The notes beneath the pieces were generated by a model, which was given only the letters and a program-made list of their open reading frames with translations, had not been told where the DNA came from and did not search any database. Of a stretch of DNA of 64,000 nucleotides, positions 25,401 through 31,766 are shown piece by piece; position 1 is the stretch's first letter, and the number at the start of each line of letters is the position of its first letter. The DNA lies in assembly GCA_034509925.1 (NCBI GenBank), contig CM067527.1:5452501-5516500 (forward strand). The letters are read 5' to 3'. The translations under genes were made by a program, and so were the position numbers. This DNA is from Hirudinaria manillensis (Eukaryota > Annelida > Clitellata > Hirudinida > Hirudinidae).

Positions 25401-28400
25401 ATTTATAACACTTATTTCTAATCAGGGCACTGAGCAGTGCAAAATTCTTGCAAACTCTTGCAAAGAATTCATTGAGGTCGGATCTGCCTTTAACGAACTG
25501 ACACAACTTTGTAATTCATTGAAAATGCATGGTGAGTTTATAAGAGAAATGAAGATAAAATGATAACTGTTTAAAATGAAAAATTGTTTATTAGTTGGAA
25601 TAAAACAATGGAAATTCAATGTTGTTATGTATTTTTTGTTTCTTTATCCTTTAAAGTCATAAAACATTTTAAATCAATAAACCTGATATCAATTTAATAT
25701 TAATATAATAATAATAATAATATGTAATATTAATATTCAAATTAATAGTTAAATTAATAAATCATCAAATGGAAATGTCAAAGGTCCCCTGTATGCCTCG
25801 TTATGTGAAGCAATACATTCCTACCTCGTGTTGTACAGCAGCATCATCCTGTCTTTGAAGCAACACTGTTCATCTCTTCTTGAAGTCTCCTTCAAGTACA
25901 GGGGCCTCTTTAGGCAGTTAAGGTTGCATTTATGTCTTAATTCATTTTTGCATTATAATTATTCTCTTTTGTTTTAACATTAATATATTAATAATATATA
26001 AATAGTAGAATACATTAATAGTTATATGTGTAGAATATATTAATATTCTACACATATAACATAATCCCATGTAGTATTACCATTGATATGTTTGCTGAAA
26101 TTGTGGTAATTAATATTAATAATATATTTTACATGTATGTTATAGTCCTTTATTATTATTATCTTTTCTGAAATTGTGATAATCAAGGATTTCTTGTAAT
26201 TTTTCAGGTTTCTTGCTCGTTTGTTTAGATTTGAGTCTCTCAATGGTTCAACAAGTCCTCCAAAGGTTGCTTCTCTTTTCATGTGATTCTCGTATTTTTA
26301 TTTTGTTTCATAATTTGCATTCAAATACAGGAAAATACTTAAAATAAAACTCTAAAAAGCGAGCAACCCCCTTGTTCATTACAGAGTTCCTTGTTGTTGT
26401 CTTACTTGTATGAAAAGTGCATAGAGGTGGAAGATGATGATGATGATCTTTATCTGCTCCTCCTGCACCTATTCAGAAGTGTTTGCAGACCTTACTTGAA
26501 GTTAGTCAATTGTTCAAACTTTGGTCACTCATCATGTAATTGATTGTTTTCTTGCCCTTTCAAATAAAATCAAATCAATAAAGACAATATTTATGATGGC
26601 ATAAATCTGGATCGCAAGATTGTCAAGGCCCTTTTGTTTTTTTATGAAGTATTCTTGACATTCTCAATGAATTGTTTACTGAGCCTCCAGTTGGAAATTG
26701 TTGTCAAATAAATATTTTGATTTAAGTTTAATATTAGTTAAAATAATAATGTACTTAATGATTTAAAAGACATTTTACTGTTAATAGTCCTATATTACTA
26801 TTAATACTCATTAGTCATTGTGGGAAATGATTGGAATTTTTTTAAATTTACAACTTTATGGCTTTCTTTAATCACAAACAAAATTCTGTGCTTAGAAATT
26901 CTATGCTTTGTTGTTTGCATTTTACATTTAAAAGTAAAGCCAAGCGTTGAACTTAAATCCCTTTGACATGGATGCGTTCTATGCTTTCAGAATGTTGGAG
27001 GTTTGGATATATTTGGGTAGGAATCAAACCGAAGAGGAACGATTTATTGTCAATCTGAACTCCAAAGCTCTTTCTTCCAGAGGTTGCCATCACGCATTTG
27101 TATTCAATTACAAAATAATTTTAAAATAATTTGTACACGGAATTTGGCTTCGACGTTTTATGCAGACGAGAGGTTTTGGATCGACGGAGTTGCTCATGCC
27201 GACCTTCCTTGCTTCCTCGATGACGTCGAGCAGACGATAATCGACTGCGGCAAATCCATCAACCTGCTGAGGACAACCTGCATGACACAGGTCTGTATTT
27301 TAGTCTTTCTTTCATTTGTGGGCCCAGAGGTTTTTATATCTTTACTTTGCGGTCAATTGAGGGACTTTGAAGTTCATTGAGTACTTCAATTCAAGTTTGG
27401 AAAAGCTAGGAGAGCCATTCTATGCTTGATCATGGAGATTTCCTTGAATGTTTTCTTAAGAAGGAGATTGAATGCTAATTACCATTCATCAATGGCTCCT
27501 GCTTTGTTTTGTGAGGATGCTAAGATCTCAAAGATTACTTTTTACCTTAACTTTTAATGCTGTTGGGTTGCTGCTTTCATTGGTGTGCATGAGTATATAT
27601 ACAATAATATAGTACCAGTAACATAATTTGCTTATAATCAACACAACCGTTTGCCTACAATTGGATTGATATAATATTACCGATGATTTTATTTGAACAG
27701 CTCTCATCATCCACACCTGCAATCTGTTCCCAGCACCCTCCTCTTAGTCTTATGCTTACAAAGTCATCATTGAAAAGTTATCGAACCTTGCATAGGAATT
27801 ACGCCGACAAATTTCTCGAACGATTCGCAGCCTCGGGATCAGCGGACGTTTCATCGACAGATCCTCTCGAGGTCTGTTTGTCGAATCTTTCAGAGCAAGA
27901 GGCCCAGGTGCTTCCTCCACCGACCACAAAAGAAATTGATTCCGAAAAGGTCACCTCAGGCAACTTGAGTGGCAGTTTGGATGCAGTTGAACAAACATTT
28001 CCAAGTCATATTGAAACAATTGCACTAGAACAAACAGAACAACAACCAACAATAGATGCAGTGGCAGTCAACAATAACAATGTACCTCCTGTTCTTGATG
28101 ACCACCACATCCATGTGAATGAAAGATCGATGCATGCTTACATCCCTCACAGGAAACAAATTGAAGGAAGTCACGTGACCCTAGAGTCAGAGCCAGTTGG
28201 AGCTTATGCAAATTCACCTGGAATGTGCAGGCCTCACATAAAATCAGTACATGGAGCCCATCCTTCTATGCACTCCATTGGCTTTACATTGAGGAATTTC
28301 AGTCCTGGGAAGGATGAAGCTGTAACTTTGGCATCCCCATGCAGCGGTTGTGATGATGGTGTGTCTATTACTTGTACTGAAGTGGACAATAAGGAATTAT

Positions 28401-29662
28401 GCAGTTATGATCAATATAAAAGTGTGTCAAAAATTGGTTCCAATGATACATTAGCATCAAGTGGTTACTCTTCATCTGTCATTGGCTCAGAAATATTCAT
28501 GAACCTGGAGACCAATATTTTTGCTGCAGCATCAAAGGGCATTGAAGACCATGAAAAGATTTTGGATCTATGTCGTGATATTAAAGGTACTCCACTGTGT
28601 ATCTGGATCAAAGAGAGTTTGATATTCTCAATCTCCGTGCAATCCAGTCTAGTTAACCAAGAACTGATGAATTATTTTCTCAATGTTGTCCACATTCAGC
28701 AATACTTTGATGTGCTCCAGAAATATATTATGTTGCAGGATGCACAGTTTGCCTCAGAACTTGTGGAGAGGTTGAGCTTAGGTTTCTATGCAAGCAACGA
28801 GTCCAACTGCTCGCATCTTCGCAAGGAGATCTTTAGTCCATCGCATCTAAACTCCATCCTGCAATGTGCTCTCGCAAGCACGTCTAGTCCAAATGCCGAG
28901 CTCATCTCTAAATTATCGTTTGTCATGTCAGATGATTCTCTGAAATCAACTCCTGACTTGCTTAGCTGCCTTAGTCTTACATTAGCGGTAGAATGGCCGG
29001 CCTGCATTGTCGTGCAGAAGAGGCATCTTAGCTTGTATAAGTCCCTATTCTCATTTCTCTTTAAGCTAAAAAGGGTGCTTTGGTATGTCAATGAGATATT
29101 TCTGAGGTTGAAGAGGGATGCCTCTATTTTCCTCAGAGGCCAGCAACACAACAAGCAATTTCAGCAACTCCACCTCTTCCGACACAACATGCAACACTTT
29201 GTGAGGTCAATCCATGATTATGTCAGCAATCAAGTATTGACAGTGTCTTGGCAGGAGTTTCATGAGAAAACGACCTTCTCGAATGATTCTGAATTCACAA
29301 AAATGAAAGGAATTGGAAATGTGGACGAACTGATTGGACTCCATACGAAGTTTGTCGAGGAATGCCTCTCCAGATGTCTTTTGGATGACAAGTCTTCATC
29401 TATTATGTCCATCGTTGATGCTCTCTTTAATCACATTATTTTGTTCCAATCTCAGCTTAAATCTGATTCTTGGATGTCCATGGAAGGAGAAATCAATGGA
29501 GGGTCTGACCATGTTTTTCATCCCAAGTTCAAAGTCCTTTATGACACTCACAAAAAGTTTCAAGAAGCTTGCGGATTCTTGGGTAGAATCCTATTCAAAT
29601 TAGAATCAAAGTCTCACAGACCTCACCTTTCTGAACTGTTGATGCGACTTAAATTTAACTAA
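22426..29662 (+). CDS. TUBGCP6: Gamma-tubulin complex component 6 (GCP6)
   Basis: GCP6 is a structural subunit of the gamma-tubulin ring complex, which nucleates microtubules at centrosomes. Exons include 22426-22574, 22665-22792, about 22885-22970, about 23595-23717, about 23959-24047, 24497-24657, about 24985-25190, about 25427-25531, about 25781-25920, 26208-26264, 26385-26500, 26991-27082, 27166-27290 and a single 1,962-base last exon (27701-29662), for about 1,180 residues. GCP6-specific matches (recalled) are the N-terminal YEALF segment, IWQEVLQ...WEEVG, CGKSINLL before the insert region, and in the C-terminal GRIP2 half PDLLSCLSL, QLHLFRHNMQHFV, VSWQEF and the terminal LLMRLKFN. It is shorter than human GCP6 (about 1,800 residues) because the long central repeat insert is reduced. 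A 5'-truncated LINE sits in the third intron. One exon carries an Asn/Asp tract encoded by a microsatellite. Confidence 0.9.
23045..23407 (+). mobile_element. 5'-truncated non-LTR retrotransposon (LINE) 3' end
   Basis: Open from 23048 to a stop at 23216-23218, encoding the typical C-terminal end of LINE reverse transcriptase proteins (SGPNVYNKIPSII then SSLYAFKRHLKNFI). A 3' UTR and a short poly-A end follow. Perfect 11-base direct repeats AATGATGACAA flank it at 23034-23044 and 23408-23418, the target-site duplication expected from target-primed reverse transcription. The clade is uncertain (CR1/Jockey-like by the tail motif). It lies in sense orientation within a TUBGCP6 intron. Confidence 0.85.
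24512..24710. repeat. AAC/GAT microsatellites spanning a TUBGCP6 exon and its donor
   Basis: Within exon 24497-24657, AAC and GAT triplets encode five Asn followed by seven Asp. At the exon end, the donor GTGATG (24658) is itself the first part of a second GAT run that continues to about 24710. Repeat-length change could therefore alter both the protein tract and the start of the intron. Confidence 0.8.
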
Positions 29663-29987
29663 CACCTCATCTGCTGGAAAGATATTTGACCATTTTAATG
29701 ATTTGACATTAAACAAGTCGGTACAGAATGAATTATTTGCTAAATTTTCATATTTCAAGTGTAATAGATTTTTTTTTAATAAGAAAAATTGGGTGTTCAA
29801 AGATTGAAATATGTCAGGAATTTTACATTTTATGAGAGCTATTCGGATTCCATTCTAAAGTATTGCAACGCTTTGTGCTATATTGATTAATACCTTTGTC
29901 TTGGAACATTGACTGCCAAGAGGCTGCACAGGTGATGTTTGCTTTGTAAGTTGACTATTCAAGTTTCCTGTCATAACGAAAACCCTC
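29663..29987. other. TUBGCP6 3' flank
   Basis: Probable 3' UTR or flank, interrupted at 29988 by the LTR element. The 5-base target sequence CCCTC is at 29983-29987 and is repeated after the element. Confidence 0.5.
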
Positions 29988-30163
29988 TGTTGTGGATAGT
30001 GTAATAATATTGTAAGAATTTATTGTTACTTAAGTTTATTATGATAATATTCAGAATCTTTTTGAGGTTAGTGCAATGGCACATTCTTAGTAATAAAGTA
30101 GCTTAGTATCTCCAATTCCCAAAGTAGTCCTTAATTATATAGCAAGTAATTCAAGATACAACA
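29988..30163 (+). repeat. 5' LTR
   Basis: TG...CA ended, with a poly-A signal AATAAA at 30094-30099. No strong TATA box is evident, but AT-rich segments such as TTATTATGATAATATT lie upstream of the AATAAA. Confidence 0.93.
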
Positions 30164-30164
30164 T

Positions 30165-30178
30165 TGGCGACGAGGATG
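30165..30178 (+). other. Primer-binding site, tRNA-Ser(GCU) type
   Basis: TGGCGACGAGGATG begins one base after the 5' LTR. Its complement matches the terminal ATCCTCGTCG plus CCA of tRNA-Ser(GCU) over 14 bases (recalled tRNA sequence). The last three bases are also the start codon of the internal ORF. Confidence 0.85.
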
Positions 30179-31351
30179 ACTAACGCTCAAAAACTATCGG
30201 TAGCAGAGATGTTCCTGTCCTATCAGGAAGAAAGAGAACAGAGATTGAAACAAGAGCGCGAAGAAAGAGAACAGAGAGAGGAGCAAAGAGATCAAGAACG
30301 GTGGCTGACAATAATCAAGATGTTCAGCGCAGATACCGTGATTGCACCTATCCCTGTCCACTGCGATGCGTGGAGGGAGGACGTAGGGAGTAAGAATGCT
30401 CCACTTGCTCTAGCGGGCGAGGCCCGAGTTGAACCAAAGATGGTCAAGGTCAGCACAGACACCGTGGCTGCACCTATTCCTGTCCATTGCGATACATGGA
30501 AGGAAGAAGAAGGGAGTAAGGATACTCCAGTTGATGTAGCGGGCGAGGCCCAAGAAGAATCCGTGATATACAAGGTCATCGCAGAGACCTTGGTGGCAAC
30601 TACTCCTGTCCACTGCGATGCGTGGAAGGAGGAAGAGGAAAGGATTAATGTTGATCCTGCTGAGAGAATGAACGAGCTCCAGGATGAACCAGGGAAGACA
30701 GTCGAGGCTGATCCAGTCGTAGCTGAAGATAGGTCAGCATTTGGGGATTCTCGAGACTTCCCTAGCAAAGAAGTCCGGAACCCATTGCCTCAGGAGAAGG
30801 AGGAAGCAGAGGGTTGCTGCAGTAATCACACTGGCCAAGAACGGGACAATGTAGATGGCAGTGTTGCATTAATAGGCAGCAAGTGGATGAGTAGAGTTCC
30901 AAGGAGATCTTACTCAGTCCATGAACAAGGCGATTCAATCGGTCGAAATGGGGGCAAACGAAGGAGGTTTCATTCATGTGTTCCATCTCACTCTCCTTCT
31001 CCAAGTTACGATAGAGAATCAAGGTCAAAGAGTTATCACAGACGATACAGGAGTAAATCGTGGTCAGGAAACCATGATAGATGTAGATCCGACAAATACG
31101 ATGATAGGAGGAGAAACAGTAGGAAGTCCGTGTTAAGGATGAATAGGCATGCTGATAATAAGGAAGGACAAATTGAGAAGTCAGCAAAACAGAGGGAATG
31201 GTGTTGTCCATTCGACAGAGGCAAGTCGGTGGTAGAGGAACACTCCCAAGAAGATGCAATGCCAAAACCAGTAAAAAGATCCATACGCCATCGCAGTCCG
31301 CTTAAGCGTCTCGTGATCGACACAAGCAAGAAGATCTATAATTATATATGA
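30176..31351 (+). CDS. Single ORF of the LTR element: coiled coil, repeats, SR-like tail
   Basis: 391 residues, starting at the ATG that overlaps the primer-binding site and stopping at the polypurine tract, so the ORF fills the interior. Residues about 15-45 are a highly charged coiled coil built from EREQR-type heptads. Three degenerate repeats of about 42 residues follow (near 30335, 30460 and 30586), each with the core PVHCDAWKE. Then comes an acidic linker, and from about residue 245 a basic Ser/Arg-rich domain with RSKSYHRRYRSKSW-like sequence. The charged N-terminal coil recalls the start of some animal Ty3/gypsy gag proteins, but there is no capsid major-homology region, CCHC knuckle or enzyme motif. 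The SR-like tail could replace a nucleocapsid in binding RNA (inference). Function is otherwise unknown. Confidence 0.8.
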   Translation: MTNAQKLSVAEMFLSYQEEREQRLKQEREEREQREEQRDQERWLTIIKMFSADTVIAPIPVHCDAWREDVGSKNAPLALAGEARVEPKMVKVSTDTVAAPIPVHCDTWKEEEGSKDTPVDVAGEAQEESVIYKVIAETLVATTPVHCDAWKEEEERINVDPAERMNELQDEPGKTVEADPVVAEDRSAFGDSRDFPSKEVRNPLPQEKEEAEGCCSNHTGQERDNVDGSVALIGSKWMSRVPRRSYSVHEQGDSIGRNGGKRRRFHSCVPSHSPSPSYDRESRSKSYHRRYRSKSWSGNHDRCRSDKYDDRRRNSRKSVLRMNRHADNKEGQIEKSAKQREWCCPFDRGKSVVEEHSQEDAMPKPVKRSIRHRSPLKRLVIDTSKKIYNYI

Positions 31352-31359
31352 GGGGGAGG
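31350..31359 (+). other. Polypurine tract
   Basis: GAGGGGGAGG directly before the 3' LTR, the expected plus-strand primer site. It overlaps the ORF stop codon TGA (31349-31351). Confidence 0.9.
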
Positions 31360-31535
31360 TGTTGTGGATAGTGTAATAATATTGTAAGAATTTATTATTA
31401 CTTAAGTTTATTATGATAATATTCAGAATCTTTTTGAGGTTAGTGCAACGACACATTCTTAGTAATAAAGTAGCTTAGTATCTCCAATTCCCAAAGTAGT
31501 CCTTAATTATATAGCAAGTAATTCAAGATACAACA
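31360..31535 (+). repeat. 3' LTR
   Basis: 176 bases, differing from the 5' LTR at three positions: one in the TTATTG/TTATTA segment and two in GCAATGGCAC/GCAACGACAC. Confidence 0.93.
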
Positions 31536-31766
31536 CCCTCCATGGCCTAAATTGATCATAAAAAGAAATTAACTGAAAACCTTATCCAAAATGTGGCCAC
31601 AATTTGAGTCCAGGGTTTTAAAAGGCTTGGAGGACAAAAATATTTTAGGATGGGCTAGGGTGTTATAAATAAAAAACATTTTCAATCTCATTTTTTTAAA
31701 ATTTCCTAGAGTTTGTTGGTGTAATCGAATGCCAAAAGCGCTACCTTTATTATTTACTACTATGGA

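Follow-up and report, generated by a model that had tools for sequence, protein, structure and literature searches.

Two families of LTR retrotransposons in the genome of Hirudinaria manillensis, here called N1 and N2, both avoid in-frame stop codons in one long open reading frame, and the amino acids that N1 encodes after codon 50 are near-neutral. The N1 copy studied here lies in a window of 64,000 nucleotides (contig CM067527.1, positions 5,452,501 to 5,516,500), whose first base is position 1 in what follows. N1 is best read as an internally deleted derivative of a Ty3/Gypsy-type coding element, A1, which was mobilised in trans and whose frame is kept mainly for the translation of its RNA; we put the probability of this reading at roughly 0.55. 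Non-autonomous LTR elements are common, and N1 itself is ordinary; less so is its evolutionary pattern, in which the frame stays open while the encoded amino acids are unconstrained. To our knowledge, and this is an impression, it has rarely been asked why some of these elements keep a long open frame.

The element and its family

The element occupies positions 29983 to 31540, target-site duplications included, and is itself 1548 bp long with an internal region of 1196 nt. Its features are listed below.

29983-29987, no strand: 5' target-site duplication CCCTC (read from the sequence, flank comparison)
29988-30163, + strand: 5' LTR, 176 nt, TGTTGTGG...ACAACA (LTR self-comparison, genome matches)
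30092-30097, + strand: AATAAA in the LTR, possible polyadenylation signal (read from the sequence)
30165-30178, + strand: primer binding site, 14-nt complement of tRNA-Ser(GCT) plus CCA (tRNA gene in the genome)
30176-31351, + strand: ORF P0001, 391 codons plus TGA (frame kept open across copies)
30176-30325, + strand: gag-derived N-terminus, codons 1-50, charged, coiled-coil-like by eye (A1 gag comparison)
30324-30701, + strand: three tandem 126-nt (42-codon) units (first 86 nt 74-81% alike)
30750-30777, + strand: A1 gag scrap of 28 nt, RDFPSK, codons 193-202 (24/28 identical)
30803-30901, + strand: probable scrap of the C-terminal half of protease, codons 210-242 (A1 and N2 comparison)
30902-31213, + strand: basic Arg/Ser-rich stretch (net charge of codons 241-350 +17)
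31214-31348, + strand: pol C-terminal tail, codons 347-391 (comparison with A1 locus L072)
31350-31359, + strand: polypurine tract GAGGGGGAGG, overlapping the stop codon (same in A1 locus L072)
31360-31535, + strand: 3' LTR (173/176 identical to the 5' LTR)
31536-31540, no strand: 3' target-site duplication CCCTC (read from the sequence, flank comparison)

A preliminary description of the window had reported an intact, young, non-autonomous LTR retrotransposon with all structural hallmarks, and its account of the structure holds for an element that is fairly young. The paired LTRs have TG...CA ends and differ, as described, at three sites (G/A at 30025/31397, T/C at 30077/31449, G/A at 30079/31451), and they are flanked by a 5-bp target duplication. 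The primer site TGGCGACGAGGATG is a perfect complement of the 3' end of tRNA-Ser(GCT) with CCA, for which a matching gene is present in the same genome, and primer site and polypurine tract together are those of an LTR retrotransposon. The ORF is intact, with its ATG inside the primer site and its TGA at 31349-31351, the last two bases of which open the purine tract. The reported lack of pol was borne out as well: a Pfam search of the ORF up to E 1 gave no match, so that capsid, nucleocapsid, protease, reverse transcriptase (RT) and integrase domains are not recognisable in it at that threshold, and the protease scrap and the pol tail are the only pol traces found by comparison with A1. The neighbour was also named correctly, since 27638-29659 on the same strand matches TUBGCP6 structures (E 6e-52, block residues 320-674) and is the last coding block of that gene, with its stop codon ending 325 nt before the 5' LTR.

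At least 40 matches to the window LTR, its own two included, were found at 93-100% identity in the 148-Mb genome (a lower bound, from 190 candidates), so its structure is not due to chance. When the whole genome was searched with the ORF, 132 stretches matched. Both LTRs could be delimited in 17 of the 30 loci fetched for the ORF, and these 17 amount to 14 distinct insertions, since L014, L015 and L016 share flanks and L028 and L029 do likewise. The same-flank copies (the former at C11 2.12-2.17 Mb, the latter on C15 and C1) are either segmental duplications or uncollapsed haplotypes of the assembly. A check proposed in the preliminary description, for multiple full copies with distinct duplications, thus came out positive, as 12 of the 14 insertions have a perfect 5-bp duplication (CCCTC, GTAAT, ATTAT three times, AAAAC, ATTTG, AGCAT, ATTTT, GGAAT, GTTAC, ATAAG). 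One ATTAT duplication, that of L013, sits in a simple repeat, and the duplication of L018 follows a 36-nt extension of the LTR; no target duplication was found at L035, and at L015 there is a match only with two extra bases.

The LTR pairs of N1 copies differ at between 1 of 168 and 13 of 172 sites. In 4 of the 20 loci tested the ORF runs without interruption between primer site and purine tract (L009, 391 codons; L013, 410; L017, 503; L022, 412), and the number of 42-codon repeat units varies between copies. Copies L020 and L023 have a 5-nt frameshift in common and lie between different duplications (AGCAT and ATTTT), which means that a broken frame moved at least twice.

Several loci depart from the usual structure. 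In one LTR variant, an extra 36 nt include the primer site once more and finish, like the normal LTR, with AAGATACAACA or a near match; this variant occurs in both LTRs of L018, in the 5' LTR of L021 and in the single copies L004, L064, L066 and L071. In three of these four single copies a 5-bp duplication (CTAAT, TAGAT, CTTAA) follows directly after the extension, so the new end served as LTR end. Locus L065 consists of an LTR and a primer-site stub within a flanking duplication of about 35 bp rather than 5 bp, unlike the usual product of an integrase. An apparent 17-nt tRNA complement after its LTR was considered as a tRNA footprint and rejected, because the extra bases belong to the duplicated flank of about 35 bp. 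A short N1 copy with an ORF that is stopped after 85 codons (L088, C4:8585650-8586750) is inserted in what appears, by eye, to be a copia-type pol gene.

Descent from A1 and relation to N2

A genome search with the gag part of L049 identified four further loci at 75-94%, which together with L049 make up A1, and many remoter gag-pol ORFs, among them A2 with intact ORFs of 1424-1454 codons at 47%. The domains of A1 were found in separate pieces and comprise DUF7083, a zinc knuckle just under the Pfam cut-off, an aspartyl protease, RVT_1, RNase H and rve; the order, seen across several loci, is RT-RNase H with integrase downstream, as in Ty3/Gypsy elements. A larger pol-bearing relative with a common LTR and primer site, which the preliminary description had suggested looking for, therefore exists in the form of A1, pieced together across several loci. 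Primer site and gag start are common to N1 and the A1 loci L049, L055 and L056. The LTR of N1 copy L013 is identical to that of A1 locus L072 at 152 of 158 positions (up to 96%); the window copy belongs to another subfamily than L013, and its LTR matches that of L072 at 146 of 158 ungapped positions with 18 gap columns. L072 also has the same terminus ATATGAGGGGGAGG and the same purine tract as N1. That the start codon overlaps the primer site and the stop codon the purine tract had been taken as a sign that the element is pared to a minimum. This interpretation has to be given up, because the start lies in the primer site in A1 and A2 and the stop lies in the purine tract in A1, so the layout was inherited.

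None of the five A1 loci examined is intact, each being truncated or interrupted by stops as far as fetched, so the helper of N1 has to be inferred. We infer from the sequence comparisons that A1 or related elements supplied the Gag and Pol that spread N1 in trans. The earlier proposal of mobilisation in trans is thus favoured by the copies with distinct duplications and by the pol-bearing relative, but a present mobiliser was not found among these five loci. A2 was considered as a direct parent of N1 and rejected, as its LTR scores -14 against that of N1, within the range of 200 shuffled sequences (mean -25.2, maximum -10.5). Two A2-type loci with LTRs that are near-identical by eye (L086, C11:5598200-5600000; L087, C3:8114400-8116200) have long pol ORFs of 1310 and 1332 codons and a gag that apparently lacks part of the capsid, in frame; they perhaps represent a class of elements that have pol but depend on capsid supplied by others.

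N2, which comprises L050 and its relatives, has an LTR of its own of about 202 nt; in L050 the two LTRs are identical and flanked by a TACAG duplication. The primer site is of the N1 kind, the ORF has 710 codons, and the stop is followed by a tail that looks pol-like by eye. The N2 and N1 LTRs are related, since they score 24.5 against each other and the shuffled maximum is 4.0. LTR end, primer site and leader of N2 are 87% identical over 47 nt to L079, which has a capsid-bearing gag ORF, and the exact primer-site junction occurs at 49 places in the genome versus one for the reversed control. A relative of N2, L078, is a TRIM-sized mini-element with a 71-codon ORF, in which a gag start is joined directly to a tail that is pol-like by eye. 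Another N2 copy, L058 (C9:7047500-7051500), has no recognisable purine tract before its 3' LTR; nonetheless its LTRs differ at only 1 of 202 sites and its CTAAC duplication is perfect. A 75-bp segment of N1 (window 30792-30866) recurs at 84-87% identity in four N2 loci (for example L050 3958-4031) and contains the protease scrap; otherwise the ORFs of the two families hardly align. This suggests common descent of the segment or its exchange between N1 and N2.

The ORF in the window contains pieces of A1 that follow gag-pol order. Codons 1-50 correspond to the A1 gag start (21/27 amino acids identical; DNA 78.7% over 174 nt), the 28-nt scrap is colinear with A1 gag just before the zinc knuckle (E 1e-4), codons 210-242 match the C-terminal half of the A1 protease (E 0.003), and codons 347-391 match the pol tail of L072 (52% of amino acids over 48; DNA 77.5% over 129 nt). 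The weak protease match is strengthened by N2, whose counterpart is alike at 18 of 30 amino acids and itself matches the A1 protease at E 2e-10. A source of the 42-codon repeats and of the basic Arg/Ser-rich stretch was not found by the ORF search of the whole genome. Capture of a host gene was considered and rejected: the ORF stretches that were followed up turned out to be N1 copies, A1 (codons 1-50) or N2 (codons ~203-243), and none pointed to a host gene. That N1 descends from A1 is, by these matches, nearly certain, and the ORF looks like a single gag-pol frame that has collapsed and drifted.

Alternatively, N1 might have arisen from a spliced subgenomic A1 RNA that was reverse-transcribed, with the gag start joined to the pol tail as in the CERV mRNA discussed below. 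A1 gag and N1 diverge after ATCAAG, where A1 goes on with GTGATC, a possible AG/GT donor that is present in all three A1 copies read (in one of them with ATCGAG); however, the colinear scraps of protease and of gag before the nucleocapsid lie between the supposed ends, deletion and drift are simpler, and no matching acceptor was seen in the A1 stretches read, where the motif used missed the A1 tail. We regard a spliced origin as highly improbable and retain internal deletion of A1 as the origin of N1.

Stop avoidance and amino-acid constraint

Stop gains were counted as distinct sense-to-stop changes in an alignment of the 14 N1 insertions, per one-step route to a stop, a correction that covers one-step neighbours and leaves the mutation spectrum outside it. 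The coding frame gained stops on 8 of 168 routes. Frame 1 gained them on 15 of 147 (Fisher P 0.08 against the coding frame) and frame 2 on 33 of 187 (P 1.8e-4); with these two frames pooled, P is 8.7e-4. No gain in the coding frame is common to two or more copies, versus four and nine in the others, and three other reference copies gave the same picture. Without constraint, the whole tree (length 0.685) should have accumulated about 36 stops (P 1.8e-8 for the 8 observed); if they arose only after insertion, the expected number is about 11. Gaps in multiples of three make up 11 of 12 shared gaps versus 20 of 37 singletons (P 0.036), two gaps first marked as shared being counted as single-copy insertions. 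In N2 the corresponding stop gains are 7 of 346 versus 21 of 313 and 26 of 346 (P 3.6e-4), with none shared versus four and six.

These counts weigh against the possibility that N1 is a plain non-autonomous decay product whose frame is open from youth alone, without selection. Such an origin would agree with LTR pairs that are almost identical in the youngest copies and with an omega near 1 over most of the ORF, but the other two frames of the same copies accumulated many more stops in the same time, the total falls far below the expectation for the tree, and N2 behaves alike. We consider it unlikely.

Constraint on the amino acids was estimated as omega, corrected with the mutation spectrum of the LTRs, in 16 N1 comparisons that have one common reference and are not independent. 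Omega is 0.50 in codons 1-50 (P 7.5e-4), 1.01 in codons 51-346 and 1.01 in the pol tail. As a control, three A1 locus pairs gave 0.16-0.24 in the nucleocapsid-protease-RT-RNase H region, one pair being measured both ways; the gag part (0.73, 177 codons) and the integrase part (0.57, 180 codons) of A1 were both not significant, which leaves the protease-RT region as the basis of the control. Differences between 26 N1 loci and the window copy fall on the three codon positions in numbers of 758, 917 and 836, with no excess at the third. Conservation of the whole N1 ORF as a protein was rejected, as the codon-position, NG86 and spectrum-corrected tests are clear for codons 1-50 only. The preliminary description had the element keep one intact protein; this is true of the frame in the window copy, but clear amino-acid constraint is confined to those 50 codons. 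Disjoint sets of N1 pairs gave an omega of 0.84 and 0.85 (P 0.10 and 0.15) and the uncorrected NG86 medians are 0.70-0.75, which leaves room for a weak constraint on the protein. For N2 omega is 0.93 over the whole ORF and 0.78 after the gag start (P 0.006), which suggests some constraint there; the value of 1.82 for the gag start comes from an alignment that is doubtful because of tandem repeats. With the other frames and the A1 protease-RT region as internal controls, stop avoidance can be separated from amino-acid constraint.

The main rival to a selection on the fate of the RNA is a disordered but useful protein, that is, a working accessory factor, largely disordered and hence tolerant of sequence change, such as one that binds or exports the element's own RNA. 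The open frame, the low omega of codons 1-50 and the N2 value after the gag start would all fit such a protein, as would the change from an acidic repeat block (net charge -15) to the basic stretch behind it; by analogy, CERV of Cer1 is described as needed for export of the genomic RNA (PMC10309623). Against this, omega is about 1.0 in codons 51-346 and in the pol tail, third positions show no excess of differences, the repeat number varies between copies and the frameshifted lineage moved. An accessory protein is accordingly possible, although we think it doubtful.

We thus return to a frame that is kept mainly for translation, since it is almost free of stops and its amino acids are near-neutral after codon 50, a combination that points to selection mainly on N1 RNA being translated to its end. 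N1 RNA driven by the LTR would be packaged in particles of A1 or related helpers, its reverse transcription would be primed by tRNA-Ser(GCU), and the helper integrase would recognise the TGTTGTGG...ACAACA ends and insert the copy. An early stop would harm a genomic RNA that doubles as mRNA, a step that is less certain than packaging, priming and integration. The simplest candidate for the benefit is that an open frame may escape nonsense-mediated decay and the surveillance of long 3' UTRs; retroviruses whose gag and pol are separated by a stop are described as needing protection from nonsense-mediated decay (PMC10309623). The gag coiled coil might have a small role in joining helper particles. 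An absolute need for an open frame is doubtful, because the lineage of L020 and L023 moved with its frameshift. More tentatively, at least two families of non-autonomous LTR elements may keep their frame for openness alone, whether to shield the RNA from nonsense-mediated decay or to give it access to the place of helper-particle assembly. If this is true, the set of surviving parasites is shaped by translation-based surveillance of retrotransposon RNA, and to find a short LTR element with its ORF intact is in itself no evidence for a functional protein. Collapsed gag-pol frames would then be coding-neutral corridors, and their owners a class of LTR parasites that standard annotation would take for protein genes.

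Comparison with known systems

LARDs have a non-coding internal region of over 4 kb, and that of N1 measures 1196 nt. TRIMs have no coding capacity, and N1 has a 391-codon ORF that is kept open. The TR-GAG elements of plants have, like N1, one ORF and no pol; they keep a recognisable gag, whereas N1 has only the gag start before the capsid and the scrap before the zinc knuckle.

Several groups of animals are known to have short LTR elements that lack pol (PMC6934838; PMC3286476). TRIMs with repeats of 100-250 nt, a primer site and a purine tract are described from an ant, taeniid cestodes, the honey bee and bivalves (PMC6934838), and N1 resembles them as a short non-autonomous LTR element with primer site and purine tract; however, TRIMs are defined there as smaller than 1000 bp, and the N1 copy in the window has 1548 bp. 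Non-autonomous LTR elements of Culex have, like N1, tandem repeats between the LTRs and no pol, and at least one has a tRNA-Ser primer site (PMC3286476). They are presented as lacking coding potential and a master copy (PMC3286476), whereas the N1 repeats are in frame and a master family was found. Among the matches listed in a search of the open-access literature (titles and abstract openings), there was no animal LTR element that combines an open frame with a lack of constraint on it.

The N1 ORF can further be compared, by description, with CERV of the Ty3/Gypsy element Cer1 of C. elegans, whose Gag begins with a predicted coiled coil (PMC10309623). CERV has N-terminal peptides in common with Gag, and another exon, read in the frame of the polyprotein, supplies its C-terminal half (PMC10309623), so that CERV and the N1 ORF both join a gag start to a C-terminal part of the polyprotein frame; in contrast, CERV is spliced within the autonomous Cer1, and N1 is a separate integrated element. 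The scheme of mobilisation proposed for N1 and A1 is that of ETn/MusD in the mouse, where a non-autonomous LTR element is reported to be spread by a coding relative, its likely ancestor, and to be more numerous than that relative (PMC6466679). The two pairs differ in host and in element clade, and ETn is described as having no coding capacity (PMC6466679), whereas N1 has one open frame that runs through its internal region.
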